Positions 1,849 through 25,500 of a stretch of 64,000 nucleotides of DNA are shown one piece after another. Under the pieces are notes generated by a model that had not been told where the DNA came from, did not search any database, and saw only the letters and a list, made by a program, of their open reading frames with translations. The stretch's first letter is position 1. Every line of letters starts with the position of its first letter. A program made the translations under genes and the position numbers. Origin of the DNA: Colius striatus (lineage: Eukaryota; Chordata; Aves; Coliiformes; Coliidae); the NCBI RefSeq assembly GCF_028858725.1, contig NC_084763.1, positions 58,241,152 through 58,305,151 on the forward strand, read 5' to 3'.

Positions 1849-2881
1849 TTTGAGAGTTTAAAAATCCAGAAGTTCTGTGAAGTAGAGCCCATTTTACAAG
1901 GGGTATTTAACTCACCTCAGAGCTTGAAATCCCTGAGCAGCAACAACAGGGCAACTGACACAAATATTCCAAAAGAAAGCACCTGCAGAACCTCAGCATC
2001 TCAGACAGCACCTTACGTGCTACCAAAGCAGGCACTGCCACTTAAAACCAGTTCCCAGACCTATTTCCAACATGTCTTTTGGACTTTTGTGCCTCAAGAG
2101 AAGAACCTCAGCTAAACTCCTTCAGAACAGTAGTTCACTGAATGCAGCTTCTATCAAATGCCCATTCTTGCTTCCTAAAATAACCATCAACAGCATCAGA
2201 AAACAACTTGTCGGTGTGGATGAACACAATGTTCCACTGTAAGAACCATAAAGACCTGGAGTGTGGGATATGTAACAAAAACAGAAAGCCTCCAAACTTA
2301 AAAAGCCCCACCACTGCTCTTTGTGTGCAGCCAAAGGAAGCTCCTGCCTCAGCCCGTGTGCTAACGGCTCACCACACACCAGAAACGTTTCCCAATCTCT
2401 TCTTCCTGGCCACCGAGTTTGTGCCCAACATAGCTCTCCTCAGCCACCACCTGAGCTCCACCATCAATCCACCACACAGAAAGGAACCAACCAGATGCCA
2501 CAGCTTCCCCTTAACACACAGTTATTAGAAACCTCAGGCAGGGCAAACAATGGAGACAGGTGACCCAAAACCCAGCAGGGACGGGGTTTAACCTCGAGAG
2601 ATGCAGGATATACAGAGAGGGAACCCCCAAGCTCCTTGGCAATGCTCACACTAAGCTGCTGAGGGGGTTTGCACAAAAGACTCATCCTCTCCAGACTCAT
2701 TTCTGCCTAGTCTGTAAAAGGAAAGCAAATTCTACTGATCACTGTCCCGCTTCATCTCAAAAAAAGACAGGCAGGAGGGTTATAAGAGGCCCAGAGAAGT
2801 TCAACAGGGATGATCCAAGAGTCTTCCATAACACAGAGAAGTCTAGGAAGACTTTTCCATTTGGAAAAATGTTATGAACAA

Positions 2882-3505
2882 AGGGCTTCTCAAACTGCTC
2901 CTCTCAACTGCACCCCTCAAACTGTACCCCTCAAACTGCTCCTAACTGCTCCTCTCTAACTGCACCCCTCAAATTGCACCCCTCAAATTGCTCCTCTCAA
3001 ACTGTACCCCTCAAACTGCTCCTAACTGCTCCTCTCTAACTGCACCCCTCAAAGTGCTCCTCTCAACCTGTACCCCTCAAACTGCTCCTAACTGCTCCTA
3101 ACTGCACTCCTCAAATTGCACCCCTCAAACTGCACCCCTCAAACTGCTCCTCTCAAACTGCTCCTCTCAAATTGCACCCCTCAAACTGCACCCCTCAAAC
3201 TGCACCCCTCAAAGTGCTCCTCTCAACCTGTACCCCTCAAACTGCTCCTAACTGCTCCTAACTGCACCCCTCAAACTGCACCCCTCAAACTGCACCCCTC
3301 AAACTGCTCCTCTCTAACTGCACCCCTCAAACTGCTCCTCTCAGCTGCATCCCTCAAACTGCACCCCTCAAACTGCACCCCTCAAACTGTACCCCTCAAA
3401 CTGTACCCCTCAAAGTGCTCCTCTCAACCTGTACCCCTCAAACTGCTCCTCTCTAACTGCTCCTCTCAACCTGTACCCCTCAAAGTGCTCCTCTCAAGCT
3501 GCACC
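2882..3505. repeat. 15-bp minisatellite (CTCAAACTGCACCCC-like)
   Basis: About 40 imperfect copies of a 15-bp unit alternating ACTGCACCCCTCAA and ACTGCTCCTCTCAA forms. Because 15 is a multiple of 3, it keeps a plus-strand frame open (PLKLHPSNCTPQ-like); this is not evidence of a gene. Confidence 0.92.
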
Positions 3506-4882
3506 AGCCTGAGGAGTCTGAATGGGGAGCCTGCCTCCTGCCTCTTCCACAACAGGAGCCATTCAGCATCAGACACAAGTACAAAGTGGCAGCTCAGAAC
3601 AAACACACAGTTAAGCCCTGGACACCGTGTGGCATGGGTGAGGCAGCAAGCAGACACCACTCAGTGCAAAGCCAAGGTATTCCTCTGGCTCCACAAGCCC
3701 CTCTGCCACAAGCCACTTCTCCCCAGCCCCATGCTGGCTGCCAGCACCCAACAGATTTGTCTTGTTTGCACACTCCTCCCCTACACCAAATCCTGTCCCT
3801 GCTCAGAACCAGCCACTAACCCAGGCAGAGCGTGCTTGGCCCAGCAGCCATCCTTATGCAATGCACTGCTTTTGGAATACGCTTCTTTGTGTTGATGAGG
3901 CAGCTGCCAGGGAATCACTTTCTCCTGCAAACACCCCAAGGCTGATACAACACCCACATGCAGTTACACATCAGGGCTTTACCATCCGACTCACCTCTCA
4001 CTTCACCAAGAGCACGCTGGCCTGGGGCTGTATGCCCCAACTCAGTGGTCAGGCACAAACACCCAGGGACTGGATCAACTTCTCACTCTGTGGCTGAAAC
4101 CAATTGGTCCAGGAACCAATTCCAGGATGCAAAGAGCGACCAACAGGGAGCTCCTCTGATCTTTGTTTGGAAGGATCACGTCTACACGCAGACACCGATT
4201 TGGCACCTTAAACCCCACATTTCTGAAGTATGGAGGAAATTCATTCCCATACAGCAATAACACAGACTCCAAGTGCTAATTAGGTGCTATTTACCTGCTT
4301 GCCAGTCCTAACCACGCTCCAGCACTGCCGTCTGAAGTCGCTGAGCCCATGTTTGTACTTCCTCCTGAACACAACGTCATCCAGCCGGCTCTTTCGCTAA
4401 CAGCCGCGGTGCAGGGCTGCAGCTCTCGGTGCAAGGCTCAGGAGAGGAGCACACCAACAGCTCGAGGAGGAAATGGCAGTTTCTAAAGGTCTCTGCAGGA
4501 CCAAGCTTCACAGCCTCTGTTTGTGATATGAAATGGGCCGAATGTGTTTGGTGTCGCTCCTGAAGCGGGACCTTGGTCAGATTCACCCTCAGCGCCACTC
4601 CTGGAACGTTCCCAAGCACTGCACCTATCACAGACTAACAACAAAGAGCCAAACCTCCCCAAAGCAGCCCTCAAACCCCACCAAAGCATGCCAACTGCAA
4701 GAAGAAATCGAGGTAAACCACTTGGAGAGCTCTGAGGGAAGCACACACGGCCAGCCACGTGCTTCTGCACTGAAAGCCACAGTCCTCCTGCTCCCATCTG
4801 GGTGCCTGATTCCACCTGCAGCAGCAGGCAGTAAGTGCAAGGGGAGCTGCCCCTCGCCTGCTGCCTTCACCCTGCCCCAGCA

Positions 4883-5193
4883 CTGGAGAAGAGGAGGCTG
4901 AGGGGAGACAGGAGCACTCTGCAACTCCCTCACAGGAGGCTGAAGTGAGGTGAGGGTTGGTCTCTGCTCCCACATAACAAGTGACAGGACAAGAGGAAAC
5001 AGCCTCAGGGCACATTGAGGCTGGAGCTGGGGAACAATTCCTTCCCCCAAGGGCTGTCCAGCCCTGTCCCAGCTGCCCAGGGCCGTGGGGGAGTGCCCAT
5101 CCCTGGAGGGATCCCAAAGCCTGGGGCTGTGGCAGTGCTGGGGGAACAGTTGGGCTCCAGCAGCTCAAGGGCTTCTCTGTAATTCTGTGTATT
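4883..5193 (+). mobile_element. CR1 fragment
   Basis: Plus-oriented; starts at GAGAAGAGGAGGCTGAGGGG and ends at the terminal AATTCTGTGT, the CR1-specific 3' octamer type. Confidence 0.85.
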
Positions 5194-5787
5194 GAAGCTG
5201 TAAATGACAGGATGCAGAGAAGGAGCACAAACAAGCTCTCTGGCAGGATTAAAAAGTCCAGAAAGGGATTTGATGACTGGGAAAACAGGTTACAGGTCAA
5301 GAAGGACAGTGCTAAGATGTTGTTACTCAAATCCCAATAACCAGCTGCAGGCATTGCAGCAGATCAGGCATCAGTGCAGAACTAAAGGAAGCTCTTCACC
5401 TGCCATGATGACTGTGTTCTCCTCTGGGCAGGTGAGAAGGGCAGGCAAAAGATCTCTTTGGGTCTATAAAGCAGAAAACAAGCTACAGGTGATGATGTGA
5501 CCCTTCTGTTTCACCCAGTGCTGGCAAAGCTTCACTGGGACACCCCGTGACCTTGTTTTGGGATGATACTGAAAAATGGCATTGAACCAAGTGGGGAGGC
5601 TCTGAAGCTGAGCCTGGGAGCTGTGTGCCCTCAGAAGGCTGAGGGGAGACCTGAGGGATTTACTCTTCAGGGTACTGCTGCTGAGGCTGTCCTGGTCTCC
5701 ATGCCTACTGAGAACAGCAGAGCAGGGACAGGTTTAAACCTTCTCACTAGACAATACGTTACTTGAGTGGCTGTAGAGTCTCCAACT

Positions 5788-6460
5788 CAACCATAAAATC
5801 ATACAACCATAGACTTCTTTTGGTTGGAAAAGATGTTTAAGATCAAATCCCAGCCCTGCCCTCACCCTGCCACAGCCAGCACTGACCCACAGCACCTCAG
5901 CCCCACGGCTTTGGGATCCCTCCAGGGCTGGGCACTGCCCCAGCTCCCTGGGCAGCCTGGCACAGGGGCTGACACCCCTCTCAGGGAAACAGTTCTGCCT
6001 CAGCTCCAACCTCAACCTCCCCTGGGGCAACTTGAGGCTCTTTGCTCTCATCCTGTCACTTGGGAGCACAGACAGACCCCCAGTCCCAGCCTCCTGTGAG
6101 GGAGCTGCAGAGAGTGCTGCTGTGTCCTCTCAGGCTCCTCTTCTCCAGGCTCAACACCCCCATTCCCTCAGCCCCTCCCCATCCCCTTGTGCTCCAGCCC
6201 CTTCCCCAGCTCTGTGCCCGGCTCTGGCCACGCTGCAGCCCCTCAGTGTCCCTGTGGCAGTGAGTGAGGGGCCCAGCACTGACACAGCCCTGGAGCTGCA
6301 GCCTCAGGGGATGGGCACAGCCCTGGGTCTGCTGCCACCCCGCTGCTGAGCCCAGCCAGGCTGCCACTGGCTTCTTGCCCCCTGGGCACGCTGCTGGCTC
6401 ATCTTCAGCCTCTGGCACCAACCCCCCCAGGCAGTTTGCAGCCCCCGTGCCCCAGCCTGT
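5788..6460 (-). mobile_element. CR1 fragment, about 0.67 kb
   Basis: Begins at its 3' end (ATAAAATCATACAACCATAG) and GGTTGGAAAAGA. It contains one copy of the 40-bp motif near 6270, the unexpanded state of the arrays at 44.3 and 54.4 kb. Confidence 0.88.
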
Positions 6461-8570
6461 GGCACTGCCTGGGCCCTACACAGTCTATCCTATCACTGAA
6501 GCTGTAAGAACCCACAGGCTCTCTCCCTCTCTGCACAGCCTCGCAGGTTATGAGCTCTTTCCTGCTCTGTTCATGTAACCATGTTTCTGTCCATCAGACA
6601 CTAGCATTTTCTGAGACTTATTTTTTTCAATCTCACCTAGTTGAGAATCTTCTGACCACCAAAACCAAAACCCTTCTGAGTTCAAGACCCAGGGAAAGGT
6701 TTACTTCTGCAGCCAGCAGCAGACCTAACAACTCATGGCTGAGAGAAGTGAAGTGGCTTTGCCAGGGATGGCCCTGTGGCAGACCAGCACTGGCTGTTAC
6801 ATGCTCCCACGGTCTTTCATCTGCTTCCAGACCACCTGACTTTTAGCTGCAGGAGTTTAAGATGACACCTACTCCCCCTGCTCTCCTTCCCCTACACAGA
6901 CTGCTCACCCTGCTCTAGTCTTCCAAAGCATCACCTATTTTCCATCTCAAGACGCCCACTCAAGCTTTTGTGATATTTTCTTTAGTCTGTACTTTAACAC
7001 AGACAAAAATAACTCAAATGACTGAGTGCAAAGCTGCTCTCTGTCTTGTCTAGTCACTGCCATGAGCTGCTTGCCTGATGACTTTGCTCTTAAGAGTCAA
7101 ACTGATACTGAACCCTTCAGTTTCACAGCACTGGACCTGTAAGGTTTCCTCTCTGTTCCTTCCTCCACCAGCTTCTTGCCATTAAGACATTCAGAGAATA
7201 ATGTCTGTGTCCCTTGACAGTCAGGTTTGACTCCTTCCTTAATCTTCCTTGGTGGTCAGAGGAAGAACAGAACCCTTGCTGGTGTGCATAACCCACACCC
7301 CACAGGAGGGATGAAGGCCACGTGTGTAACTTGTGTTTTACTTCTCCCCAGCTCCAGCCCTGCTTTATTGAGACAAAGTTCACCTGAGGGAGAGTTACCT
7401 AAAGCAGATTTGCACTGTCATAACATACCCACCAGACCCTCACTTTGTGTTTTCCGCCCTGCCCCTGGACAGTTCTGCAGCTGCAGTCACCCATTTACCT
7501 CATGAGATGGTTATCAAAACGAGCAGAGTTCCTTCCTGTTTACCCACAGCCTGCTCTCCCTCCCCTGCAAAGGACACGTTTCCTGTTTAAATCTCTCCTT
7601 CAGGACGGGGGTCAAACCCCACCTGGCTGAGGCCCTTCTGCTGTGACTGTATGGCTGTGGGGCTTGTTTCTCCAAGAGATGGTCTCGTCTGTAGACCTGA
7701 ACAGCACCTTCTCCTGCCACTGCTTTTCAGGAGACTATGCCACAAGAAATGTTTGACACCCACCCTTCATCCAAGAGTTTTACAAGTTACACTGGACCAT
7801 CATTGTCTTGTCCCCAGCACAGGCAGACACACTACTCAGAAGGAAAGTGAGTTTATTTAGCAGCCCACTACACTACTGCTGACGTTCAGGTCATTGCTAC
7901 GGCCGTAGGTGCTACAGATGCTGCAGGCTTCTGAAAGGTAAATGACATCTTCCCAGGTAAATCACACCTACATCAACACTCCCAGCAGACTTCTGCATTT
8001 TCCAGGTACTGCTCCACTTCCTCGTCCAGAGCTGCCGGCCTTCCCCCACGCAGAAACCCGCCCTGGCTCTGACTGTTACCCAGGAAGGGCTGAAGAGCTC
8101 TTCAGGTACCTTCTGCACCTTCTTTCTCCTGAGATTTGCACTGCCAGCACAGAGGTTTCCAGCCTCTCCTGCAGCAGCACCACCTCCATCACTGTTCCTG
8201 CAATCCTCTGTACTTCACTCAGCAGCTAGCTCGGTGATCTCTGTTGATGCAAGAGCAGCATTTCCCTGGGTTACCAAAGATTACAGCTTCTGTTGGGTCA
8301 TTCCCCCCAGGAGAAAACTCCCCAGAAAAACCCTTAGAAAAGAGCTTCTGAGTAAGCCCTTCTGTCACATTAAAACACCCTCCCTAACAAAGACCAAATA
8401 CCACTGGGAGCAGTTCCCTGAGGAACTGCAATCAGAATTGGATCAGACTTCAGTTTCTGTACCAAGCACCACCACCTTCCTGACAGTATGTTGTGAAAAC
8501 ATACAAGACAATAGCCTTTGCCACTGGAGGAGGAGGTCTTGGGTTCTGTAGCACGGGCTGGGTACTTCTG
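6461..8570. other. No feature seen
   Basis: Unique-looking sequence without recognisable exon, repeat or CpG cluster, within the presumed SCAP intron. Confidence 0.6.
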
Positions 8571-8573
8571 ACA

Positions 8574-8806
8574 TAGAATGACAGAATGGTAGGGGTTGGA
8601 AGGGACCTTTAGAGACCATCCAGTGCTGCTACAGCAGCTTCCCCTGGCTCAGGGAGCACAGGAACGTGTCCAGGCGCGTCTGGAAGCCTCCCAAGAAGGA
8701 GCCTCCACACCCTCCCTGGGCAGCCTGGGCCAGACTCCCTCACCTCACAATAAAATAGTTTTTCCTTATGTTTAAATTGAACTTTTTGTGTTCCAGCTTC
8801 TGGGTT
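8574..8806 (-). mobile_element. CR1 fragment
   Basis: Starts ATAGAATGACAGAATGGTAG GGGTTGGAAGGG at its 3' end and ends in the TTGTGTTCCAGCTTCTG block. Confidence 0.88.
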
Positions 8807-9717
8807 TGGCAGAAAAACACAAGTCTACCTTCAGCTCTCTGGGGAAAGGCGCTTCCTGTTCCACAGACTCTCTACAGCTCCTGAGGGGTGGAGCTTCAGT
8901 GGTATTTTCACTCTGACCTCTTGAACCATGGAAGTTTTGGCTGTGTCCATCAGCTAATTAACAGGATCCTCTCCTGAGCAGGATGTTGACAGTGGCAGAG
9001 ATAAGGGAAACAACAAACACAAACAGAAGTGAAACCGAGCACCTAGTCCTGAAACAGCAAACACTGAGATGTCAATTTCAGCAGCACCTCCCTGCATTGT
9101 TCCCCAACAACCCCAGCAAACCCAAACCAAACACCAAGCCTTTAATCCCAACAGTTTTCCTTACAAAACAAATCCTGCACTTGCAGACTTCTCAGGCTTG
9201 AAGAGCATCTATTCACTTGCATGGCAGTGACTTTACAGAAGTAACACTGGACAGGCCTGGATAAGCAAACATCCACTACTCCCAACTTCTTCTGTCATCT
9301 CTAGTAACCTGCAGAACTAAATATTTTGCTTTCTAATACTCACCAGCTAGGAACCCAGGCTCAGCAAATCAACCAAGCTCTTTCTTCCCAACAAGAAACA
9401 ATCCCAAACCTACTCTGTTGGACACCGAGCCTGAAAGGCTGACTCGGACATTGTCTGCTGAAAACAAACCAGCTATTATTCCCCTGGCATCTTTATCACA
9501 ATGGTCCACACAAGATTCATTCTGGTTTTTACCCAAGAAATGCAACTCTCCTTCTCTCCACTGCTCTCTTGCTGCAGCTAAAACTCACTCTTGTACTGCC
9601 TTAGAGTGTTATTTTCTTCCAAGGGGAGCCGTTACACAGAAGGAACCGCAGCGCTTCTCAAGCACTGCGACTGTGTCTTCACCTGAGGGCATAAATTAGA
9701 AGATTCACTTGAAGACT

Positions 9718-10175
9718 CAATCCCAGCATGGTGGGGGCTGGAAGGACCCTGCAGAGCTCATCAGCCCCTGCTACAGCAGGTTCCCCTGGCTCAGGGGACA
9801 CAGGAACGTGTCCAGGTGGGGTTGGAAACCTCCCGAGGAGCCTCCACACCCTCCCTGGGCAGCCTGGGCCAGGGCTCCCTCACCTCAGCACCAAAGGACT
9901 TGCTCCTCCTGTGCCAGGGGCACTGCCTGTGTGCCAGCCTGTGCCCATTACCCCTTGTCCTGGCACTGGCCACCACACAACAAACACTGGTCCCAGCCTC
10001 ACCACCCACCCTTTAGGGATTGATCAGCATTGCTGAGGTCCCCCTGAGCTCAGGCTTCTCTTCTCCAGGCTGAACAGCCCCAGGGCCCACAGTCTTTCCT
10101 CCTCACACACATATTCCATCCCCTCAGCACCTTGGGAGCCCTTCACTGGATCTCTCCAGCAGTTCTCCTTAAGGA
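9718..10175 (-). mobile_element. CR1 fragment
   Basis: GGTGGGGGCTGGAAGGACCC type 3' end, through GGCACTGCCTGTGTGCCAGC, to the CTCTCCAGCAGTTC block. Same subfamily as 18976-19612. Confidence 0.88.
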
Positions 10176-11997
10176 AACCACCTTTAAATCCTCGGTCCTC
10201 CACCTTCATTTTGATATTTTGCTTGTGAGAAGTCATAGCTTACAGACATTGAAACAGAAGGCTGCCCAAGCACAGAACTCCACAGAACTTTCCTTAAGAA
10301 CTTTCTCACCCTTTAACAGACCATACAAGTTTTGAAGGAGCTGTAACACAAGATATTACAGCTGAGGAGTGCTTCTAAAGCTGAGGCTACATCCACCTCC
10401 AGTCTCGTTCTATACTCGAGACTGAGTTCCTGGGGCCCTGAGCCCTCGGTTCCTCCTCTCGTACAGCCCCTGGCACAGAGAAGCGTGCTGCCCCTCACCA
10501 GAGCTCCAGGCTGCCAGGGCACACTGCAGAGAGCCTGCTGACAAACAGGCAAAAGCTGCCTGCAGCTCCTGGGGAAGCCAGGCCAGGAAGGGCTGGCAGC
10601 AGTGAGGACAGAAAGGAGGATTCCCAGGGCACAAGATCTGCTGAAATTGCAATGCTGCTGCTGCTCCCCTTCCACTCATTACCCAGCGTGTGCTGCTGCA
10701 GGCAGGTGAAACTAATGGTGTTCATCAAGCTGTACCTGCTCTATTTTTTAAAGCCTTTGCTCATCAATAAAAAAAGACTTCTCAGTGCATAACTGCACTA
10801 ACTGTGACAGCAGGCAGGCCTAGCAACCCACTGACAGAAGCTCCACAGCTGTCTTCAGACAGAGCTCGACAGAGTCACTCACCACTAAGATTTGGACACT
10901 TGAAAAATCACTTTCGTGCTCCCGAGACAAAACCTGACTCCTCTTTACCCTTCTGTGGTATTACATGTGAATTGTGCCTGGAAAATAAACTGCTGCCACC
11001 AAGTTTTGTAACTGAATACACGGAGCAGAATTGGCTTGGTGGAAGGATTTGGGGGCTAACAGCACAGCTCCTGACGTGTCACACCTTCAGCAACAACCAC
11101 AGGGAGCTTTCCTTCCTTCCAAGCTCAAGCCAGCTAATCTCCTTTCTCCATTACACAACAGCTCGTGTAATCCTAAATTTATCACACCAGCGCACTGTCC
11201 CAGCAGGGTGAGGTTTCACAAAGGGTGAGATCATGCCCCCTCTGTGCCCCTTGTATCAAAGGAAACCTCAATCTGTCTTTCAACAGTCCTGAGCAATAAG
11301 CAGACACTGCACATGACAGGGGTGATCCTTTCCTCGGTATTCTCCCAAGCACAGAACCACAACCACCTCAGCATTCACACAGCTCCTCGTCCACTCTGTT
11401 AGAAGACAACCTCCATGCCCAGTTAGTCTCGTATAAGGAAGCTGATTCCTAAACAGCAGCCAGACTTCAAAGACTAGGGCGGTTTGCCAGAGTGAGAGAC
11501 ACTCGCAGCACCGTGCCCTCATCACACAGCAAAGTCCACATGAGATCAAAGCAGTGGGAAAGGGCCAGTCCTGGAGCGGTCAGTAACGACCTGTCAACAT
11601 GCAAAGCAAATCCAGCGGAGCGTTTGGCTCCATGTCCCAGTCATCCCCTTTACATACACAGCCACCTTCCTTCTCTCCTATAAAGCATGTTCTCCTGATT
11701 CTGCAGCAGAGGTGATCAAATCCTGCCTCTGCCTCACTCTCTTCAGTAGTTTAGCCCTGTCCTACCACACCTGACTCACCAAAACTCTGTGTGTCCCTCT
11801 TTCAGAGACACTTGCTCACGCCTTCCCTCCCTGTCCCTCTCCTCCGCCACAGCGATACCTCAGGCTGACGACTCGCTTTCCTGAGCCCTGAACACCAATC
11901 CTTCCACAGAGCAGTGGCTACCTCAGGCCTTCAGCACAAGCACCCAACCTTCCCACACACACTGCTTGTTTCTTTCCCCTCAGCTGCCAAGCGGCCA
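10176..11997. other. No feature seen
   Basis: Unique-looking sequence; short open frames on both strands look random in composition. Confidence 0.6.
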
Positions 11998-12240
11998 CGG
12001 AATGGTAGAGGGGTTGGAAGGGACCTTTGGACATGAGCTCATCCAACCTCCCTGCCAAAGCAGCATCCCCTGGCTCAGGGGGCACAGGAACGTGTCCAAG
12101 TGGGGTTGGAAACCTCCTGAGAAGGAGCCTCCACACCCTCCCTGGGCAGCCTGGGCTCCCTCCCCTCAGCACCAAAGGACTTTCTCCTTAAGTGGAACTT
12201 TCTGTGTTGCAGCTCGCCGTGCCACTGGACACTACAGAGG
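11998..12240 (-). mobile_element. CR1 fragment next to the CpG island
   Basis: GGTTGGAAGGGACCTTTGGA near its 3' end and CCTCCACACCCTCCCTGGGC inside. It lies about 0.3 kb left of the island. Confidence 0.86.
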
Positions 12241-12383
12241 AAACTGCTGCCCCATCCTCTTGGCACCCACCATTGAAATACCGGTGTGAACAACACCTCA
12301 CCCTCTACACCCCTCAGGAGAGCACAGCACCTTGCTCTCCACCAACAAAACCCACCCTTGCCATTTCCCCAACACCTCCTAAA

Positions 12384-12399
12384 CCCCCCCCCCCCCCCC
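12384..12399. repeat. Poly-C run (16 C)
   Basis: Homopolymer in the C-rich shoulder of the CpG island, between a CR1 copy and the island core. Confidence 0.9.
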
Positions 12400-12709
12400 A
12401 ACCAAACCCCAACCAGCACATTCACACAGCCAAACCCCGGCCACGGACAACCTCAATTGGCGTTAGATAACGAAGGAAGGACCTTTGGCACACCCCAAAT
12501 CCTTACCCACATCCCACCGAGAGCACGGGAGGACCCTTAACCCTCATCCTGAGGCCTTATCCCTTCAAGCCTTCCCGATGAGGGACACAGAGGCCTAGAG
12601 GCCGCGTTTTTTCCCTTCAAGAACGGTGGGGAAAGAGGGGGGTGGATATTAAAGGGGGTGGGGGGGGTAAAGAAGCGGGGGGTGATATTAAGCGGGGTGG
12701 GGGTGAGAT

Positions 12710-12789
12710 GGGGCGCGCGCCCTCCCCTCACACACACGCACGCGCGCGGCCGCGCGCGTGCGTGTGTGTGAGGGGAAGGCGCGCGCCCC
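12710..12789. repeat. 80-bp near-perfect palindrome
   Basis: Inverted repeat with no spacer, centred between 12749 and 12750 on GGCC. The inner 54 bp (12723-12776) pair perfectly; extended to 12710-12789 only one pair (12722/12777) fails. Each arm goes from C-rich through (CA)n to (CG)n, so alternating purine-pyrimidine makes it a strong cruciform and Z-DNA candidate. Confidence 0.95.
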
Positions 12790-12934
12790 CGAGGGAGGGT
12801 TTTTGGGGAGGAAAGAGGGGAAACAAGCTCTTCCGATCGCTCTTATCTCCGTCTCTCACCTCACCACGCGGCTCCTCCTCACCTCCGACACGTCCCGGCA
12901 GCCGTTTTGTTGCTGTTTTGAGTCTTTTTGGGTT

Positions 12935-12960
12935 TGTGTGTGTGTGTGGGGGGGGGGGGG
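12935..12960. repeat. (TG)n followed by 13 G
   Basis: Seven TG dinucleotides run directly into a 13-G tract within the CpG island. It is prone to length change and to sequencing error. Confidence 0.85.
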
Positions 12961-13303
12961 TTTATTTCTTTTTCCCCCCCTCTCTCCCCGCTCTAAAAAC
13001 CTTTGTTTTTCGCTCAGTCCGTTTTCCCGGCCTGGTTCATTTACCCACCCCCTCCCCGCCCTCCCTCCCCCCGTTGCTGTTGCCGCTGCTGCTGCCGCCG
13101 ACGACAACGGTCCCTACGCGCGCGCGCAAGGCGCCCCCCTCCGCAGGCCACGCCCCCGCCGCAGGCACCACGCCCATTGGTCCGTAGATACACAAGCCAC
13201 GCCCACATCCCCCATAACCACGCCTACCTCATTGTATACGCTCATAAGCCACGCCCCCTCTCTGGTTGATTGACAAGTCTCTGCGTTGTGACACGCCCCC
13301 CTC

Positions 13304-13311
13304 TGACGTCA
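13304..13311. promoter_or_regulatory. Perfect cAMP-response element
   Basis: Full palindromic TGACGTCA inside the CpG island, beside CACGCC boxes and upstream (on the minus strand) of the inverted CCAAT box. CREB/ATF family is the expected binder. Confidence 0.5.
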
Positions 13312-13604
13312 CCCCGGCGCGCCAGCGCTCACGTGGGAGGGCGGAAGGGGGAGCACGTGGAGCGGGGACGGGGTGGCGAGGGGAAGGGGCAATGGAGGGG
13401 TGGGGGTGGGGTTAAAGAGAGGGGACGGTTGGGCACAAGGAGGGAGAGAGGGCACCCAGGGGAGTGTAAGTGGATAGGAGATTGATTAAACTAGTATGCA
13501 CTGGGTCCTGATGCAGGGGGGCTTTGTGGTCAGAACTAGTATGAGGCTGCACCGATCAGGACGTTGCTGTGCCCCCCAAGCCAAGGGAAGCTTGGACTGG
13601 CACT

Positions 13605-13652
13605 GCATGAGCTCTGCGGGGCCCTTCCAGCCCCCAGCATGCTGGGATTGTG
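13605..13652 (+). mobile_element. CR1 3' terminal fragment
   Basis: Only about 48 bp: GAGCTCTGCGGGGCCCTTCC AGCCCCCAGCATGCTGGGAT, the last bases of a plus-oriented copy. Confidence 0.65.
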
Positions 13653-14431
13653 TGCCAGACACATTCTCCTCACAAAGGATGTCCTGGGTTAATACATTTG
13701 TCTGCCTGAGGGGGACAGGCTGTTATTGCTGTGGGCCCACTCACTGTATCTGCATCCCGTGGGGATGGCTCTGCTCTGGCTATCAGCAGTAGCTTGATGG
13801 AGTGGGCCTGGATGCTTTATTTGCATGATTTGTACTGGTGAGGATGGAACCTGCCTCCTTGGCACGGACAGAGGCTGGATAATCATTTATTCAATCTCCA
13901 TACAAGGCCAAGGGCTCACTGAACACAATAACAAACTGTGCTAGATAAGGTATTGTACAAATACAGTGTGGAATGTGCTGTGGGTGTGCTGGCTCTGTGG
14001 AGCTACTCCCTGTCACCCATCTACACAGGAAATAAAGCACTCTTGACTCTGGAGGGGGGCAGGCTCATTGCACACTGGGTATGAACCTGCTGTTCAGACA
14101 ACAGGAGGAGTTTGCACCAGGAGCTAGAGGACAGAGGTGACTCTGTACCCAGAGCCACAGGGAACAGGCCTGGGAACAGAGGGGTTGGCAGCACATGGCT
14201 TGGGCAAGGGAGGCAAGGCTGATACCCTGGAAGGAGTGAGAGCTGCAGGGAGAAGGGAAGGCAAAGGGGTAGGAGGTGCTCAGAGACCACAGGATCTTTT
14301 TACCCCAGGATGTGTGTGGTGGTCTTGCCATACGGCCCCAGCGTGGGGTGGAATGCTGGGCAGCCTGGGGAGCCAGGGCTTATCCCGAGGCACCAGAACA
14401 AAGTCATGAGCATCTACATCACAAGGGTGTT
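13653..14431. other. Intergenic, right of CpG island
   Basis: Unique sequence containing a plus-strand AATAAA at 14031-14036 and nothing else recognisable. It could hold the end of a divergent non-coding transcript from the island. Confidence 0.4.
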
Positions 14432-14810
14432 GGGGAGGGGCTGAGGGAATGGGGGTGTTGAGCCTGGAGGAGGCTGAGGGGAGACAGCAGCACTCTCTGA
14501 CACTCCCTCACAGGAGGCTGTGGCTGGGGGGATTGGACTCTGATCCCAAGCGACAGGATGAGAGGAAACAGCCTCAAGTTGCCCCAGGGGAGGTTGAGAT
14601 TGGAGATGGGGAACAATTTATTCCTCCAAGGGCTGTCCGGCCCTGCCCCAGCTGCCCAGAGAGGGGAGCAGTGTCCAGCCCTGGAGGGACCCCAAAGCCG
14701 TGGAGCTGTGGGGCTGAGGCCATGGGTCAGTGGTGGCCGTGGCAGGGTGAGGGGAGGGCTGGGACTGCAGCAGCCTTTCCAAGCAAAATGATTCTGTGAC
14801 TTCTGTGATC
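14432..14810 (+). mobile_element. CR1 fragment
   Basis: From GGGCTGAGGGAATGGGGGTG to the terminal GATTCTGTGACTTCTGTGAT, an intact CR1 3' end. Confidence 0.88.
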
Positions 14811-15231
14811 AGGATGTGGAGACCAGAGGCTGATCTGGCAGCTTTGCTGAGCCAAGGCCAATGCGACCATGAACCGAGCCGAGCCCTCGCTCTGGGGCTG
14901 ATGCTGCTGGAAGCCAGGGGAGATGAGGAGGGATGCCACTGATGGCAGAACAGGGTGGCCTTGCACAGGGTCAGCCAACATCTGCGTGCCCAGGGCTGCC
15001 AATACACACAGCTGTTTGTGAGCCAGAGCTTGTGCAACGCTGCATCTCCACTGATAAAGCAGCTGGGGCTTGGCCCAAGGTCTCTGGTCTTCATTCCCTC
15101 GGCCTTGGTGGGAGCAGCACAGGGTCTTGGCAGGGCAGCAACTGGAGAAAGGCCCACTATGGACTGGTGGCACAGTGGGGCAGGGCTGCCAGCAGCAGGG
15201 GCTGTCACTCTCCTGACACTCCCCCACACAC

Positions 15232-15390
15232 TCCCTCACAGCCCTGGGCAGCCTGGGACAGGGGCTGACAACCCTCAGGGAAACTGTTCTGCCTCAGCTC
15301 CAACCTCAACCTCCCCTGGGGCAACTTGAGCCCTTTTCCTCTTGTCCTGTCATTCATTTCTGAGGAGCAGAGACCGACCCCCACCTCCCT
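15232..15390 (-). mobile_element. CR1 internal fragment
   Basis: CCTGGGCAGCCTGGGACAGG to CCTCTTGTCCTGTCATTCAT; both element ends are missing. Confidence 0.75.
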
Positions 15391-15935
15391 GCAACCCCCT
15401 TTCAGGTAGAAAGATTCCTGCATGGAGAAAGCAGGAACGTGTCCCATGGAGTTGTTCCCCCCTCTCTGGAGCTGCAAAGGCCCTGAGAGGTTGCTCCTGT
15501 CTCTCACAAGCATGAGGGGTGTCATTTCTCTGCCAGGACACTCCCTGGTGTGAGCTCTGCCCCCAGGGCTGCCCCTGTGGCTGTGGGGAATGAGGGCCCC
15601 CAAATGCCCATTTCCTTCCCCTGCCAAGGAGGCTGCAGGGAACGATTCCCATGCACAGTTACTTAATGACTGTACCCTTATCTAATTAAAATTAGCGACT
15701 ATTAGCCCTTAATAACACTTCAATACAGGCACATAAATGCTAGTGGCTATTTGTGGCTGAGGCAGAGGCTTGTGTCCATTGCCCAAAGTCAAGGCTGAGC
15801 CTGGGAAGCCTCATTCTCAACAGACACGGGGCTTTCACATGACAAAGAGGGAAAGGAACAAAGGAAAGCAAGGGATTAACCCAGCAAGGTCTCACCACAG
15901 CGAGGTCAGCAGCTGCACACGTAGCTAGAGACGTA

Positions 15936-15941
15936 TTTAAT
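15936..15941 (-). terminator. Candidate ELP6 poly(A) signal
   Basis: ATTAAA, the commonest variant of the canonical hexamer, on the minus strand about 475 bp past the ELP6 stop. No AATAAA lies between it and the stop. Confidence 0.4.
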
Positions 15942-16415
15942 TCTGTAGAAGCTGGGAGTTGAGCAAATCTCTCCTGTGCCAGAAGCTGGGAGAAAGGTAG
16001 AAATTGCAACAGGCTGCAAAGACCATCCCTGTTCTGTGTCATCCCTGAAACGCCAGCGGGAGGGTGGGGAGGGTGGAGCCATCCCTCCTCTGCCACGGAA
16101 CACCGGAAAGGAGAGGCACGCCTGGCCCCGGGGGCACCTCTGCCTGCATGGACCTGCTCCAACGGCCATTCCTGCAAGTTGCTGCTCTTCCTCTTGGCCT
16201 GGGAACGTTGGGAACGGGGTGGGAGGACAAAAGGATGCAGCAAGCTCTGGGCAGGTTAATCCTCCCTGTTGGCACACAGTCCAGTAGGTGTTTAAGCTTC
16301 GGTTTGCTGCACTGCTCCTGGGATGGGGCTGGTGATACAGGCTGCAGGGGGCTGGTGACACAGGCTGGTTTGGTGGCACATCCAGCCCCAAGGTCCTGGC
16401 CTCACTCCCTCGGTG
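15936..16415 (-). other. ELP6: ELP6 3' UTR (inferred)
   Basis: The stretch follows the ELP6 stop codon and has no coding signal. The first plausible poly(A) signal downstream on the minus strand is ATTAAA at 15936-15941, giving a UTR of roughly 0.5 kb. The end is inferred from that signal alone. Confidence 0.5.
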
Positions 16416-16544
16416 TCACAGGACTGCAGCTGACAGCCCTCTGGCAAAAAAGGTGACATTCCTGTCCTGGATCTTGTACTGGTAGATCTGGACGTGATCC
16501 TGCTTCCCAGTCAGCTCCAAGGACAATCTTTTAATTATTTTGAT
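16416..16544 (-). CDS. ELP6: ELP6 terminal coding exon 7
   Basis: A 129-nt exon encoding the C-terminal 42 residues and TGA at 16416-16418. It starts IKIIKRLSLELTGKQ and ends YQYKIQDRNVTFFARGLS then AAVL. The human C terminus has the same YQYKIQD...FFAKG...AVL pattern. Confidence 0.94.
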   Translation of the reverse strand: MKIIKRLSLELTGKQDHVQIYQYKIQDRNVTFFARGLSAAVL

Positions 16545-19500
16545 CTGCAAAGGGGAAGAAACAGGAATATCATCCCTCTGGCTGCCCTGCTCACAGCATC
16601 CTCACCCCCACACCTATTGCTGGCCTGCAGGGAAAGGGGATCACTGATAAAAGACCATCCCTTGGTGGCAGCCCCTGATGAGTGACCGGGTCCCAGGGAC
16701 AGAGCTGCCCTCCCAGCCCAGCAGAGCTCACTGAGAGCTCAGAACCACCAAAAGGACCCTTGGGGAAGTTTCCCAGGAACGAGGTGTTTTTCTGTGCCAT
16801 CACCTCAAGGTGGGAGGGACTGAGGGACTCTGCACTTCTTGCCCACCTGGGCACGCTGCTGGCTGGTGTTCAGCTGCTGGCACCGACCCCTCTCAGGCCC
16901 CTTCCCCCGGGGCAGCTTTCCAGAGCCCTCTGCAAACCCTTCCTGCCCTCACACAGATGTGTCATCAAGTCATGCTTGATGTCATCACATCATCCCTAGA
17001 CATGCTGCAGCCCAGGCTGCTCCTGGGCCACCTCTCACGGGGTGGATGGAGCATGTCTCCTACTCAGGGGCCTGCAGGCAGTGTAGTGTGTGACACAGAC
17101 TTGTGCCACCTCTCACGTGTGTTACCTGCCCGTGAACATCCTTGCAGAAGCCAGTCACCAGCCCCTCTGCCCACAGGATCAGGTCACTGTGATGACACAG
17201 GGAGTTCACAACCAGTTCATTTTCCTCATCTTCTGAGTCCTCATTGCTGTGAACCAGCACCACGATGTTCCCCTGCAACGAGAGCCAAGGTGAGCCCCTG
17301 GACAATCCCTGATCTGCACAGTGGAGCCAGCAGCTGGAGACTGCACAACCCCCCTGCTGCTACCTCAGCTACTCACACACCCCCAGCACAGCAGCTGCTT
17401 CAGAAAGTCCACCGGGAAAATAAACGACAGATATTGTAGTGGGTGTGTGTGGGCAGGGTGTGGTGCCGGGGGGCTGCTTTAAACCAAGAGCTGCTGGGAG
17501 CCTCCCCTGTGTGTGCCAGGGCCAGGGGGCTCCGAGCTGGCCCCGCTGCCGCCCCAGGCCCAGCCCAGCGGCCACGGAGGGAACGTCTCCCCACGCCGCA
17601 GCGGGTGGGTGCCCGAGGGAGGCCGTGAGCCCGGGGGAAGCCCCATGGCCCGGCCCCTGCGCTGCTGGGGGGGAGGAGGGACAGAGCCGGGCAGGAGGAG
17701 GGCTGGGGGCGCTGCTCCGGGCCTCAGCTTGTGTTTCTCACGGCCCTGCTCTGCTCTGAGTGTTCATTCACAAACCAGAGCGCTGCTCCCCAGGCTGAGC
17801 CTGTTGTGCCCAGCAGCTGCTGAGTGATCTCCCTGCCCTTGTCTCCACTCACCAGCCCTTTGCTGTGTTTCCCTCTCCAGCTGAGGAGGGGCAGTGACAC
17901 AACACACTTGGTGGGCAGCTGGCAGCCAGTCAGGGTTAAACCAGCACACATCCACAAACCTCTGACACAGCTTGCTGTGTGTATATATGGTGTTTACATT
18001 ACAGATACACGCAGAGATGTAACACACAGCCTAAAAATACATCAAGCCTTTGTTGGGAGGCAGCTGTCCAGTTAAACCAGTCTGGCAGGCCAGGCAATGG
18101 CAACCCCACGTGAATTCAGAACAGCTAAAGACAGACGAGGCCCAACAGCCACAGCCTGAGCCACGGTGCTCAAACCTTCACAGCTCCCTACACAACACCA
18201 GCTCTGCTGAAAGCCCATCCCAAGGGTCGCCGCCTCAGGCCGTGCAGGTCACCAAGGACTTCAAATAACCAGTTCCCAAACAACTGAAAAGCACTTTAAA
18301 GCTTCAGAACACCTTCCACAGCAACGTGTCAGCATGATTTATCATCTTTTTAGCTGTTTTGGAGGTAAATATCCTCAGCCAGCAGAACCCTTGTGAGCAT
18401 TTACAGCTCAAACACCCTGGCACCACAGGAAGCACAGCATAACAAAACCTGACACCATCGACTTTCTTTCTCACTCAAGCAGAGACAGGAGCAGCCAGGG
18501 TGGGGGAGGCTGCAGTGGAAACAGCACAGCATGGATGTGACTGTAAGGATTTTTGGCTGTGATGCTCTCAGAAGTTGGCACATCACTGGGGAGATCTTTG
18601 TAGGAGTCACATACCCTTAGAAACAAGAGAGGGAAACAAGCAGCAGTGCTGGACTGTTGGAAGCAGAGACTTGTGTCTCTGAGTGGACCTTCATCTCTGT
18701 CCCCTGTGAGACTCATCAGCCTCTCATCACATTCCTAACCCTTTTCCCTCTTGCACTCACACAGACAAGGGTGTGAGGAGAGATCCCTAGAGAACCAGGA
18801 GCTTTAAGAAACACTGTTTTAGACTTTGGAGCTCTGCTCACACATCAGGAACAGTGAGCCCTTCTCTGGGCAGCACCTCTGGGGAAACCAGTTGCAAAGG
18901 ACCCTATGCAGGTACTCAGGAAGTAACACAACTCCCTGAGAGAGGCCCTAGAGCAAGGACTTGAATTTCTTCACATAGAATCCCAGCATGGTGGGGGCTG
19001 GCAGGGCCCTGCAGAGCTCATCCAGCCCCAGCCCCTGCTACAGCAGGTTCCCCTGGCTCAGGGGACACAGGAACGTGTCCAGGTGGGTTGGAAATCTCCC
19101 CAATGAACCTCCACACCCTCCCTGGGCAGCCTGGGCCAGGCTCCCTCACCTCAGCACCAAAGGAGCTTCTCCTCCTGTGCCAGGGGCACTGCCTGTGTGC
19201 CAGCCTGTGCCTGGTACCCCTTGTCCTGGCACTGGCCACCACACAACACACACCGGCCCCAGCCTCCTGACACCCATCCTTTAGGGTTTGATCAGCATTG
19301 CTGAGATCCCCCTGAGCTCAGGCTTCTCTTCCCCAGGCTCAACAGCCCCAGTTCCCGCAGCCTTTCCTCCTCACACACATGTTCCATCCCCTCAGCACCC
19401 TGGGAGCCCTCCCTGGCCTCTCTCCAGCAGTTCCCTGTCTCTCTGCAGCTGGGGAGCCCAGCACTGGGCACAGGGCTCCAGCTGAGGCCTCAGCAGAGCA

Positions 19501-22500
19501 GAGCAGAGGGGCAGCACAACCTCCCTGGCCCTGCTGCCCACACTCTGCTGGATGCCCCCAGGCCTGCCATTGGCTTCTTGCCCACAAGGACACATTCCTG
19601 GCTGTCCTTGGACAGCCAAAACCTTCCAAAACCCCATTAGGCAGACGTGGAAAAAGGCAGCCAGGCTTTGCTCCAGAGGCTGTTTCGTACAGGTGACGTG
19701 CAGGAGGCTGCATGTGCAGGGAGCAGTACCTGCAGCTGGCAGCACACAGCCACTCGGCAGTAGTGGATGAAGTCCAGCACAGCCACGGGCCTGGCACCCA
19801 GGCTGAGCAGCACACTCAGGTCATCAACCAGCAGCACGACGCCCTTCCAGGAGTCGCTGCCAGCGGGACTCAGGGATGTCCGGACGAAGTTGAACAAGGC
19901 TCTGAGGTCACAGTTGCTCTCACTGGAACAGAAGAAGGAGGTCTCAAGGGGCTTGGCCCACACCTGTGTTGTTCATCACCCTCCTCACCCTCAGATACAA
20001 CACAAGGAACAGCTTCTGCCTCCCAGCTCAGCTCAGTCTCCCCTCTGGCACTTGGGAGCCAGCAGCCCTTGTCCTGGCACTCCAGGCCCTTGGCCAAAGT
20101 CCCTGCCCATGTCTCTTGGGTGCCCCTCGAGGGACTGGAGGCTGCCCCAAGGGCTCCTGGAGCCTTCTCTGCTCCAGGCTGAGCAGCCCCAACTCTCTCA
20201 GCCTGTGCTCACAGCAGAGGGGCTCCAGCCCTGGCAGCAGCTCTGGGGCCTCCTGTGCACTGGCTCCAGCAAGTGAAAAAGCCAGCATGGCTAAGGCAGC
20301 ACTGACCTCTTGGACGAGAATAAAGCTCAGAGTAACTTTTTAATAAAAGGAATGAAGCTGCTTGGATGGGGTTTTATTTGACACAGGCTTGCTGAGTGCT
20401 GAAACACATCTTCTCCAGACCTGTAGCGTGCCTGGCAGTGAGAATGGGAGTGGGAACTGCCCTGAAGTGCTGGAGAGGGGGGATAGAAAGCCTCTGTGAG
20501 CAGCAGGGTGACACAGGGCAGCATGAGCCCAGCAGTGTGCACGGCACTGGCCTTTCCCTTCACTTAGGTGTGCAGCTCCTGAGCCCTTGGGTCCCAGAGG
20601 GAAGCCCAAATGAGCTGTGTGCCAGCATTGGACCTCACTGCTCCGGCTGGTCTCAGCGCTGGCTGCAGGGGTGGGTGACAGGAGGGGGAAAACACTGTGC
20701 TGAAGTCCTGCTGAGCCTCAGCAGAACCACCAACTACTCTGTTTTACCTCATAAACTGAAGAGGACAGGGCTCTCCTGACTGCTCCTCTGCCTCTTCTCC
20801 AAACAAGAGGTCAACGCAGGACTTGAGGCCTTCCAAGAAGACAAGCTGTCCCCGCTCCTTGGCAGCTGTCAGACTGATTCCCTTCAGAGAGAAAAACATC
20901 ATGCAGAGCAAACAGCTGTGGAGGAGCAGTGCAAACAGAACCAAGGGGATCCACAGCCAGTCTTTACTGAGTCTTAGCAAAACGTGCCATTAAGTTCGTG
21001 CTTCAGCGAGTCCTGAGCAGGGGATGACACAGGCAGGGCTCCTCACACACTAGTGGACGTGTTTGCTTTCCTATATTTTGCCAAGATATGAAAAAAAAAA
21101 CCAAGCCTACTGTGATTTGGGGGTTCAGACATCCTGGAATTGCTCCTGGGAAAAGAGCCTCACTGCACAGGAGTAAAGTTGCAGAGGCAGGGAGAGGATG
21201 GGCACAAGCTGCTCCATGCACCACACTGGGAGCAATTCCTTCACCCTCCCTTCTTGGGTTGTGAAAGCCTTTTCACACTATCTCCAAATCATAGAGCCAC
21301 AGAATCATTTGGGTTGGAAAAGTCCTCTAAGAGCGTCAAGTCCCAGCCCTCCCCTCACCCTGCCACAGCCACCACTGACCCACGGCCTCAGCCCCACAGC
21401 TCCAGGCTTTGGGGTCCCTCCAGGGCTGGGCACTCCCCCACGGCCCTGGGCAGCTGGGACAGGGCTGGACAGCCCTTGGGGGAAGGAACTGTTCCCCAGC
21501 TCCAGCCTCAACGTGCCCTGGGGCAACTTGAAGCCATTTCCTCTCACCACTTGGGAGCAGAGGCTGAATCCCCCCCAGGGCCTTTTCTGCTGAAGAACTT
21601 TCCAGACCCACATCCCCAAGGACTCCCCAGCACAGTCCCACAGTGAGGCACAGCCCAGGTCTGTGCAGTGCCATGGGCTGAGAGAGCAGCAGAGCTGGGG
21701 CTCCCACAGGAAGCAGCCCCAGCCCTGAATCCCCTTGAGAGAAGAAGGAGGGACTGTGACAAACTGCCTGGGGCCACAACTCAAACTCATGGCAAGGTTT
21801 CCAGCTCTCAGTGCTGCTTCATCGTGAGGTCAAGCTCAAGAGCCACACGCTGGGCACCTCCAGCTCCAGTGGAGCAAGCCCTGGCAGAGCTGCAGAAGAC
21901 CCCAACTGCAAATCCAGTCCTTGAACTTCTGTCTCATCCTCTTTTCTTTGAGCAGACTTTTGCCAACCATTCTATAGCTCCTCAGCTGACTGATAACTGC
22001 ACCAGTCCCCCCTCCAGGAGAACACTGAGGACCTGCTATTGACATGATCATACAAATACATCTCCTGCCACTGCCTTCCAGCCTCAGCCCAACTGCACTC
22101 AGTTGGCTCAGCCTGGCAGCTTGGGTGCCTTCCCACATTGCACAACAGGACTGTAATCTCTCAGAATGGAACCAAGGAGCATCCACACTGAGACTGGCAG
22201 CGCCTCAGCAACCTGGATATTGTGCAGCTCAGCAGGTAGCTGGGCAAGATGGGGAGATAAGATGGTTTACAGGGAGTTCAGGAAGGTTGAGCTCAATGCA
22301 GCATTGCTTGACAGGCAAAATTGGTGAGGGAGAAACAAGGATCCTGAGAAAGCAGTTCCCACATCCCCAGAGGGAGGACATCCCTTGGAGGTGCTGCAGG
22401 AATCCTCTGAAGAGGGTGGCTGAGCAGGACTGGTCAGGGACAGAGGTAAGTCCTAGGGCAGGAGCAGGAGCCCTCCCCTTAAGCCAGGACTGGCTGCTGC

Positions 22501-25500
22501 TGCCTGAACACTGCAAGAGGCACACACCAGCAGCACCACAGACAGTGTTTTCTGGCAGCAGCCCTGATGAATGGATCTCTCCCCCTCACGTTTCAGCTGG
22601 CAGGGGAAGCAGTGGAAATCTCTCTTTCCTCTCATTAGCACTGAACCTGTGGCAACTGATAAGCCTTGCAGGAGCTCAGGGTTAATGTCCCTGAAAAGGA
22701 GCTCTGCCTTATCTACCCAGCCCTTCTCTCTGGAGGTCCCTGTGTGGAAATGCCACACTCACCAAGCACAGCCCCTTGTGGGGATTGTCTCGTTCATCAC
22801 ACCCTCAAGATGTGGCTTTATGGTTATTTTAACTAAAAAAATAAAGAAAACTGGGTTTAAATCATAGAATCCCAGAGTGGTGGGGGCTGGAAGGGCCCTG
22901 CAGAGCTGCTGCAGCCCAGCCCCTGCTACAGCAGCTGCCCCTGGCTCAGGGGGCACAGGAACGTGTCCAGGCGGGTTTGGGAACCTCCTGAGAAGGAGCC
23001 TCCACACCCTCCCTGGGCAGCCTGGGCCAGGGCTCCCTCCCCTCAGCACCAAAGGACTTGCTCCTCCTGTGCCTGTGTGCCAGCCTGTGCCCGTCCTGGC
23101 AGTGGCCAGGAGCTGCTGCAGCTGCTCTCCAGCAGGTCACCCCCAGCCTGTTCTGCTCTGAGACGGCAGAAAAACGCTCAGAATTGCCAAGGGCACCTTC
23201 CTGCCTGCCACAGACACCCCACACGCCCTGCTGCAGAGCCCCGGTGCTGCACAGCACCCAAACACTGCACGTCACCAGCCTGGAAGCCTTCATTATCCCA
23301 CAGCCCCACGCTGCAGCTCCACCAGGAGCACACAGACATTATCTCTGGCAGATCTGTCACTTATCCATCAAGCCCAGAATCGCTGGGGAAGCTGCAGCTG
23401 GGCGTGAGCGAGGCTGTGAGCTCTGCAGCACAGCACAGCTGTGCTCAGGCAGCCTGCAGCCTGCCAGCACTGCCGGCCCTTAAACCAGAGCCCCCAGGGA
23501 GAGCAAAATATTTGCAGGAGAGAACTAGCAAAGAAGGATGTGAGGCAGCAGCTCAAACAGCAAACACAGCCCTGGGTTCAAAGTGCAACGATCTGACATC
23601 GGGCAACAGGCCAAGGTCTCTTCTCTAGCACAACCACCTGCAGAGGAAAGCTGAGGTGACCAGGTGGTGTCCCCTGGCCTGGCAAAGGACAAGGAGCAGG
23701 CAAGAGGGTGACCAAATGGGGACAAATATGTTTTTCCCTTAAGACAGAACACACATTGTAACAAATGAGAGTGGGAAGACCAATCTGGGAAGCTGCCACC
23801 AGCCTTGCTACAGCCCAGCACGTTCACTACAAGGTCATAACACACAACACTAACTGTGCCTTAGAACTCAGTGCAGATCCTCGTGAAAGGAGGGTGACTT
23901 GCAGAAAACACAGCCCTGGAGCTGCAGCCTCCCCAGGGCCCAGCACAGGGGATGGGCACAGCCCTGGGCCTGCTGCCACCCCGCTGCTGAGCCCAGCCAG
24001 GCTGCCCCTGGCTTCTTGTCCCCCTGGGCACGCTGCTGGCTCATCTTCAGCCTCTGACACCAACCCCCTCAGGCCCCTTTCCCTCAGGCAGCTTTCCAGT
24101 CACACTTCACTATTATGACCCTGGCTCCAGGATCCTTCTTCCCAGGCCTGGGACCACCCCAGCAGAAATAAAAGCCTCACTAAGGCATGAGGCTCCTCCA
24201 ACTGCAGTCTTTATAATCTTCTAAGGATGATTACACAGAGGAGGTGTAAGCTGTGGGTGGGATAATGTAATGCAAGTGGCTTCCCACAGGCTAGATTCTT
24301 CCAAGCAGCTCCTGGAGGAAATACAGCCTGACCCAACAGAGAGAGCCAGGCAGCTGGTCTTGAGCTTGCCACCGAGGAAGAGGAGGTGACACAGCTCAGG
24401 GTTCTGTCTGAAACTGGGCTTTGCTACAGCCACGTCAATCACATCCCAGCTGCTCTCCCTACAGACCCACAGCAGCAAAGTCTAAAGTCTAAGGGTGAAA
24501 CTACTCTGCCAAAAACCACCTTTACTGAGCCTCCTACGCTCACTGAGGCAAAGGAGGATTGAAGCAAAGACAAGATCTTACAGAAACTCAAACCCATGGA
24601 AATAACTGATGTCATGCCCCCCAGCTCCCCACAACCACCAACCACGGGGGCATCTGTGCAGTTACAGGGTAAGACTCACTCAGACTTGAAACCAAGAGGA
24701 CAGGGACAGCTCAGCACAGCAGGCAAATGTAATCACTTCTCTGAACTCTCCTGGGCAATCTGTGTTCTCCTTGCTATCACCTCCCTGCCCAGCAGTACCC
24801 ACTGTGGCGAAGCAGCAGACAGCACATCACGTCATTTTGCACAGCTCTTGTGCTCCAGCTAATCCTTGTGTTGTGTCTCCCTGCTCCAACTCTCCCACGG
24901 GGGAGATGGCAACAGCTCCTATTAAAAGCACAGGCTGCACACTGGGACATTGCACCACATCAGGAAGCACACCAACAAACCCCACTCTGCCTTCAGAGCA
25001 GGCAAGGAGCCCACATTTAACAGCTGCATCTCCTACCTACGCTGGTTGCTGTGCCCTGTTTCACTCAGGCAAGCTCCCCCCTAAGATTTCCTGCTCTCTG
25101 TACCACGAAGGCCAGAACTCACAGGGGGTTTGCTCAGCACTGAGGAATCTGCTCTGCAGAGGAACTGTGGCTTGAGTATCAGCCCATGAGCTGAAGTGCA
25201 ACGTGGAAATGCTTCATTTGCTGAGTCCATTTCATTTCCCTCAGCTCCTGGACCAATGATTTCCTCTTAAAAGGAAAAAACTGAGCAGTAAATAAAATAC
25301 AGTTGTTGAGCAAGCACTGAAACTCAACCCACAGGTACACTGGGGAACTCACCATCTCAGCAACATCTGCTTCTTCAGCACCTGAAAGCCTTTACAAGCA
25401 GCAGCACTGCTGGGATTTCAAGCAGCACCAGAGGACAGACAACCACCAAGGCAAGCAAGCCCTCATCCCTCCAGCCCTGGCAGCTCACCTGGACTCCCCA

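Follow-up and report, generated by a model that had tools for sequence, protein, structure and literature searches.

Within the window analysed here, a stretch of 64,000 nucleotides of Colius striatus DNA (C7:58241152-58305151 of a 1.21-Gb genome), positions 12710-12789 form a spacer-less palindrome of 80 bp with a single mismatched pair. It is a real feature of the assembly and most likely a template-switch palindrome situated early in the SCAP transcript. As it stands, the palindrome is most likely the record of a replication error.

Structure of the palindrome

We counted as a near-perfect palindrome two adjoining complementary arms with no spacer and at most four mismatches. The block at 12710-12789 belongs to this class, being its own reverse complement save at C12722/A12777, with 39 of its 40 pairs complementary and a spacer of 0. 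Self-pairing across 12749/12750 with one mismatch in 40 had been described in the initial annotation, and this proved exact. On the plus strand the left arm (12710-12749; GC skew -0.21) passes from C-rich sequence through CA to CG toward the centre, in the order previously given, and the right arm (12750-12789; GC skew +0.19) has the complementary order, from CG through TG to G-rich sequence. The palindrome has a G+C content of 81% and contains 16 CpG. Its edges are sharp, with none of the first 16 outward positions pairing.

A self-complementary 10-mer, GGCGCGCGCC, is found near both outer ends, at 12712-12721 and, 66 bp further along, at 12778-12787; being self-complementary, the two copies also form a direct repeat. 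The mismatched pair adjoins the inner border of this 10-mer, and between both members of that pair lies a perfect palindrome of 54 bp (12723-12776). Because the GGCGCGCGCC copies are self-complementary and pair trivially, the informative palindrome is this inner 54 bp. The GCAC/GTGC interruptions of the arm repeat are mirrored between the arms, as is the non-repeat CCCCTC/GAGGGG.

The 80-bp palindrome is far beyond chance. Its extension score was 36, compared with a maximum of 12 among 2000 dinucleotide shuffles of 12600-12899 and a maximum of 13 when the 80-mer itself was shuffled 3000 times. The runner-up in the 64-kb window, with spacers of up to 8 allowed, has a 10-bp arm. Twenty-five further 10-kb stretches of the same genome (250 kb) contained two palindromes at score 12, the best of which has a 19-bp arm and a 3-nt spacer. 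Five of these stretches were beside the window, one overlapping its first 3.8 kb and one its last 152 bases, and the other 20 were spread over the same contig.

The 40-nt flanks of the palindrome are G-rich on the plus strand, with GC skews of +0.83 and +0.73. Clusters of G runs occur on the plus strand to the left (12628-12667) and to the right (12793-12820); both are weakly quadruplex-like, and only when loops of up to 12 are allowed. Directly left of the palindrome, 12638-12706 is a degenerate 21-bp tandem repeat with many G runs.

Position within the SCAP locus

Sterol-sensing exons on the minus strand at C7:58212249-58219419 account for three of the 15 genome-wide Pfam matches and, when joined, match six distinct PDB sequences, all of them SCAP (best E 1.2e-56). 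A local search with a SCAP N-terminal sequence identified consecutive minus-strand coding exons with the start codon at C7:58234415; two further N-terminal matches inside the window, with E of 0.5-0.9, were taken as noise. The gene is on the minus strand, and the exon with its start codon lies 19.4 kb left of the palindrome. The exons of ELP6, also on the minus strand, include 19727-19933 and 17111-17284, and a Pfam scan of six frames of 13401-28400 gave ELP6 alone, on the minus strand, with E up to 0.01. A phmmer comparison of two single frames with solved structures, one from the plus strand over 13401-28400 and the other from the minus strand over 1-12789, returned no match.

With 400-bp windows and thresholds of GC above 0.55 and CpG o/e above 0.7, we found a single CpG island from the SCAP start-codon exon to ELP6 (12399-13498; GC 0.62, CpG o/e 0.75), and the palindrome lies inside it. 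Since it is the sole island in this interval, we presume that it is the SCAP promoter and that exon 1 is non-coding. A putative promoter-type motif cluster at 13055-13359, made up of exact matches to motif letters, contains six C[AC]CGCCC boxes, ATTGG at 13176, TGACGTCA at 13304, GGGCGG at 13339, and CACGTG at 13330 and 13354. TATAAA, CCGGAA and the letters used for a sterol element had no match. Two candidate 5' splice sites for SCAP exon 1 (12860-12883, minus strand) have as last exon base 12883 (GAG/GTGAGG) and 12860 (GAG/GTGAGA), with scores of 6.2 and 5.8 from a frequency table. They are the only minus-strand sites scoring above 5 in 12300-13600, where the plus strand has none.

Given the motifs at 13055-13359 and the donor-like sites at 12883 and 12860, the palindrome is probably past SCAP exon 1 and outside the core promoter, early in intron 1 and just downstream of the exon. 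If either 12883 or 12860 ends exon 1, it would lie about 70-175 nt into the intron. The initial annotation had placed the palindrome in the presumed SCAP promoter. The assignment to SCAP is upheld by the PDB matches and the N-terminal exons, but the location should probably be moved from the core promoter to a point downstream of exon 1. A literature search on the avian SCAP promoter gave no paper about one, judging by title and abstract start.

Genomic copies

A search of the genome with the 80-mer, of a type that skips simple repeats, returned only the palindrome itself. A 22-nt probe from the arm, with up to three mismatches, gave 34 hits genome-wide (14 forward and 20 reverse), and its reversed control gave 45 (26 forward and 19 reverse). 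The probe matched exactly in the two arms alone, the nearest other sites being two with 2 mismatches; the palindrome is therefore no dispersed element.

With no more than 30 nt between them, CACACACG and CGTGTGTG occur together at 15 genomic sites compared with 109 for the reversed control, so the arrangement is rarer than in the control. Three of the 15 have no mismatched pair: the SCAP palindrome, which is the longest at 38 nt, and sites of 19 nt and 16 nt. A stricter pattern, CACACACGCG...CGCGTGTGTG, had no genomic site and one in the reversed control; interruptions in the arm kept it from matching even the SCAP palindrome.

Target-site duplications of 2-11 bp were sought at the palindrome edges (12709/12790) and not found; the 10-bp direct repeat further in is the GGCGCGCGCC pair. 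That pair exactly bounds 12722-12777, and in principle the 56-bp palindrome between the copies could be what is left of a fold-back or miniature inverted-repeat transposon, with GGCGCGCGCC as its 10-bp target duplication. We find this scarcely credible and reject it on copy number, since such elements occur in multiple copies and neither the 80-mer search nor the 22-nt probe yielded a second one. In addition, GGCGCGCGCC is itself palindromic and part of the CG tract, and the innermost ends of the supposed element do not pair (C versus A).

Origin of the palindrome

On balance we favour a genuine inverted duplication, probably young, that arose at the 5' end of SCAP by short-range template switching. 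During replication, the nascent strand would have switched template in a G-rich stretch of CG/CA repeats, read one arm in reverse for about 28-40 nt and then switched back, which would have placed a mirror copy next to the original and so given the palindrome. GGCGCGCGCC, which is self-complementary and stands close to each outer end, is an obvious candidate for the point of switching. The mirrored interruptions and the sharp ends suggest that one arm was copied from the other, and an inverted copy beside its source with such ends (0 of 16 outward positions pairing) is the form by which short-range template switching is recognised. In the cell, we would expect supercoiling or early elongation to be affected modestly at most, and deletions to be more frequent locally. 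The palindrome, the absence of further exact copies, the gene context and the predicted folds are what the analysis shows; the switch, its direction and its youth, like the intron-1 position and any cellular effect, are what we infer from the sequence.

Template switches in great apes provide a reference: copied pieces measure 12 nt at the median and 128 nt at most, and 65% of the events lengthen the sequence (PMC7954356). Template switching has also been reported to create hairpin stems (PMC8794818). The SCAP palindrome has in common with these duplications a short inverted copy beside its source, a hairpin, and a length within the reported range; it differs in that its copy exceeds the median event of PMC7954356 and that it is known here from one genome's sequence. 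No bird study was among the matches listed in a literature search on bird palindromes with template switching.

As to direction, the left arm may be the copy, which is a weak guess made because the right arm has a skew of the same sign as both 40-nt flanks. Of any two complementary arms, one is bound to match the flanks, and over 100 nt the right flank has a skew of -0.12, opposite in sign to the right arm. Several points tell against template switching itself. Repeated correction could lengthen a shorter palindrome gradually and end in an identical product, the copied stretch is much longer than the median in great apes, and the outer GGCGCGCGCC 10-mer, as its own complement, would pair anyway.

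It is distinctly unlikely that a fold-back read or a polishing error made the second arm during library preparation or assembly. An artefact from a fold-back read is usually as long as the read itself instead of 40 bp, and there is no N within the 100 kb examined, although the region is rich in GC and in G runs and thus hard to sequence. A 12-mer, GCTCTTCCGATC, identical to the 3' end of the Illumina adapter, is present at 12827-12838, starting 38 bp past the right edge. It has 12 genomic occurrences against 8 for its reversed control, which is near chance, and the neighbouring bases, by eye, do not extend the adapter; we rejected the site as evidence of adapter contamination but retain it as a caution.

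That CA/CG and CG/TG microsatellites grew independently and met by chance is quite improbable. CA/CG repeat makes up much of the arm, and CA-rich strings that resemble it to within 2-3 mismatches exist elsewhere in the genome, but no oftener than in the control (the 34 and 45 hits above). Independent growth would not readily give mirrored interruptions, the non-repeat CCCCTC/GAGGGG is mirrored too, and no shuffle of the same 80 bases exceeded a score of 13.

Comparison with known palindromes

In a catalogue of the human genome, the average chromosome has 797 near-palindromes in the 60-80 bp class and 84 in the 80-100 bp class; with all lengths taken together, A+T content is 80-90% in 80% of the entries and C+G is above 80% in only 2% (PMC7680136). 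Up to four mismatches are permitted in this catalogue, according to a review (PMC7999016). Eukaryotic spacer-less inverted repeats are likewise described as disproportionately AT-rich (PMC13155455). The SCAP palindrome shares with the human entries (PMC7680136) its length class of 80-100 bp, the lack of a spacer and the small number of mismatches; the catalogue is mostly A+T-rich, whereas the SCAP palindrome is 81% G+C and lies in a CpG island. The earlier description of such palindromes as rare thus applies to G+C content (2% above 80% C+G) more than to length (84 per human chromosome). So far as the human catalogue is a guide for this genome, the size would be unremarkable and the composition unusual.

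PATRRs, the palindromic AT-rich repeats found at human translocation breakpoints, are near-perfect as well and can likewise fold into hairpins or cruciforms. They are described as several hundred bp long with more than 90% A+T (PMC7999016), and the SCAP palindrome, at 80 bp and 81% G+C, does not belong among them.

Z-DNA and cruciform capacity

Z-DNA motifs are usually taken to be runs of about 10 nt or more in which purines and pyrimidines alternate. The palindrome has two such runs of 20 nt each, at 12729-12748 and 12751-12770, both Z-DNA-prone, and two 8-nt runs in its outer parts. Its arms had been called Z-DNA-type, and by this usual measure that description stands. The alternating centre that had also been described is present as a 20-nt run on each side but is not continuous, since the central GGCC breaks the alternation phase at its GG and CC steps. 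Folded as single-strand DNA, 12690-12810 gave -59.6 kcal/mol (z -11.6).

We compared B-DNA, Z-DNA and the cruciform in a crude energy model, run under 24 settings, in which slow kinetics were ignored. Departure from B-DNA was half-complete at sigma of -0.026 to -0.050 across the settings. At this threshold Z-DNA was ahead in 17 of the 24 and the cruciform in 7, and at sigma -0.06 the cruciform was ahead in 13 and Z-DNA in 11. An initial run with one setting had favoured the cruciform from sigma -0.04 onward; the verdict between the two shifts with the nucleation cost. As to the earlier suggestion that the block could extrude a cruciform or adopt Z-DNA, a structural transition at ordinary negative supercoiling is plausible under the model, but the winner changes with its settings. 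An all-G/C palindrome centre should make cruciform extrusion slow, and the 18-bp all-G/C centre here would thus favour Z-DNA kinetically. According to the model, the palindrome is capable of absorbing negative supercoils in either form.

In SCAP-sense RNA the mismatch becomes a G-U pair, giving a stem of 38 unbroken pairs and a 4-nt loop, with a fold of -95.5 kcal/mol (z -12.5). Whenever one arm acquires a single transition, one strand is left with G-U at that pair and the opposite strand with A-C; the odds that the sense strand carries the G-U are thus even, and its presence there is not a sign of selection. Rfam families, microRNAs included, had no match in the window at the gathering threshold.

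This capacity could be put to use if supercoils from SCAP transcription flipped the arms to Z-DNA or a cruciform and so tuned initiation or early elongation, which we regard as unlikely. The two 20-nt runs and the half-points of the 24-setting model (sigma -0.026 to -0.050) agree with such a switch, but the leading form depends on the setting (Z-DNA in 17 of 24 at threshold, the cruciform in 13 of 24 at sigma -0.06), and the all-G/C centre should slow cruciform extrusion. Among 153 bird species, Z motifs are reported to peak within 1 kb upstream of start codons (PMC11580473). Z-prone sequence near gene starts would therefore be ordinary in birds, and the peak fits a regulatory role, although the enrichment does not strictly apply at a distance of 19.4 kb from the SCAP start codon. 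The SCAP runs resemble the motifs of PMC11580473 in being alternating runs near a presumed gene start, and differ from them in being mirrored, in being joined within a palindrome by a phase-breaking GGCC, and in this distance from the start codon.

A more elaborate role is very improbable and has nothing specific to recommend it, namely that the palindrome is kept as a working double switch at the SCAP start, with Z-prone DNA and, in the nascent RNA, a 38-bp Z-RNA-type CG/CA hairpin. Such a hairpin might pause the polymerase, affect the first splice donor or recruit the Z-binding ADAR1, tying sterol sensing to structure. Conservation of the palindrome would point to structural control of SCAP, a central cholesterol gene. 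If confirmed by reads, it would be a clean natural example of a GC-rich, near-perfect palindrome whose two mirrored arms are Z-prone and which lies at a vertebrate gene start that is presumably transcribed. It could then serve to compare Z-DNA with the cruciform on one sequence and to ask how such accidents persist.

Other repeats in the window

Near 12000 there is a stretch that we take to be CR1-like. A tandem array of about 44 copies of a 14-bp unit, CTCAAACTGCACCC, occupies 2889-3505 with 76% matches, and 31472-32123 is a G+C-rich array of about 14 copies of a 49-bp unit, situated in a CpG-rich stretch. Two arrays 10 kb apart, at 44254-44531 and 54383-54751, have a common 40-bp unit, GCCCAGCACTGACACAGCCCTGGAGCTGCAGCCTCCCAGA, with within-array matches of 99% and 97%.
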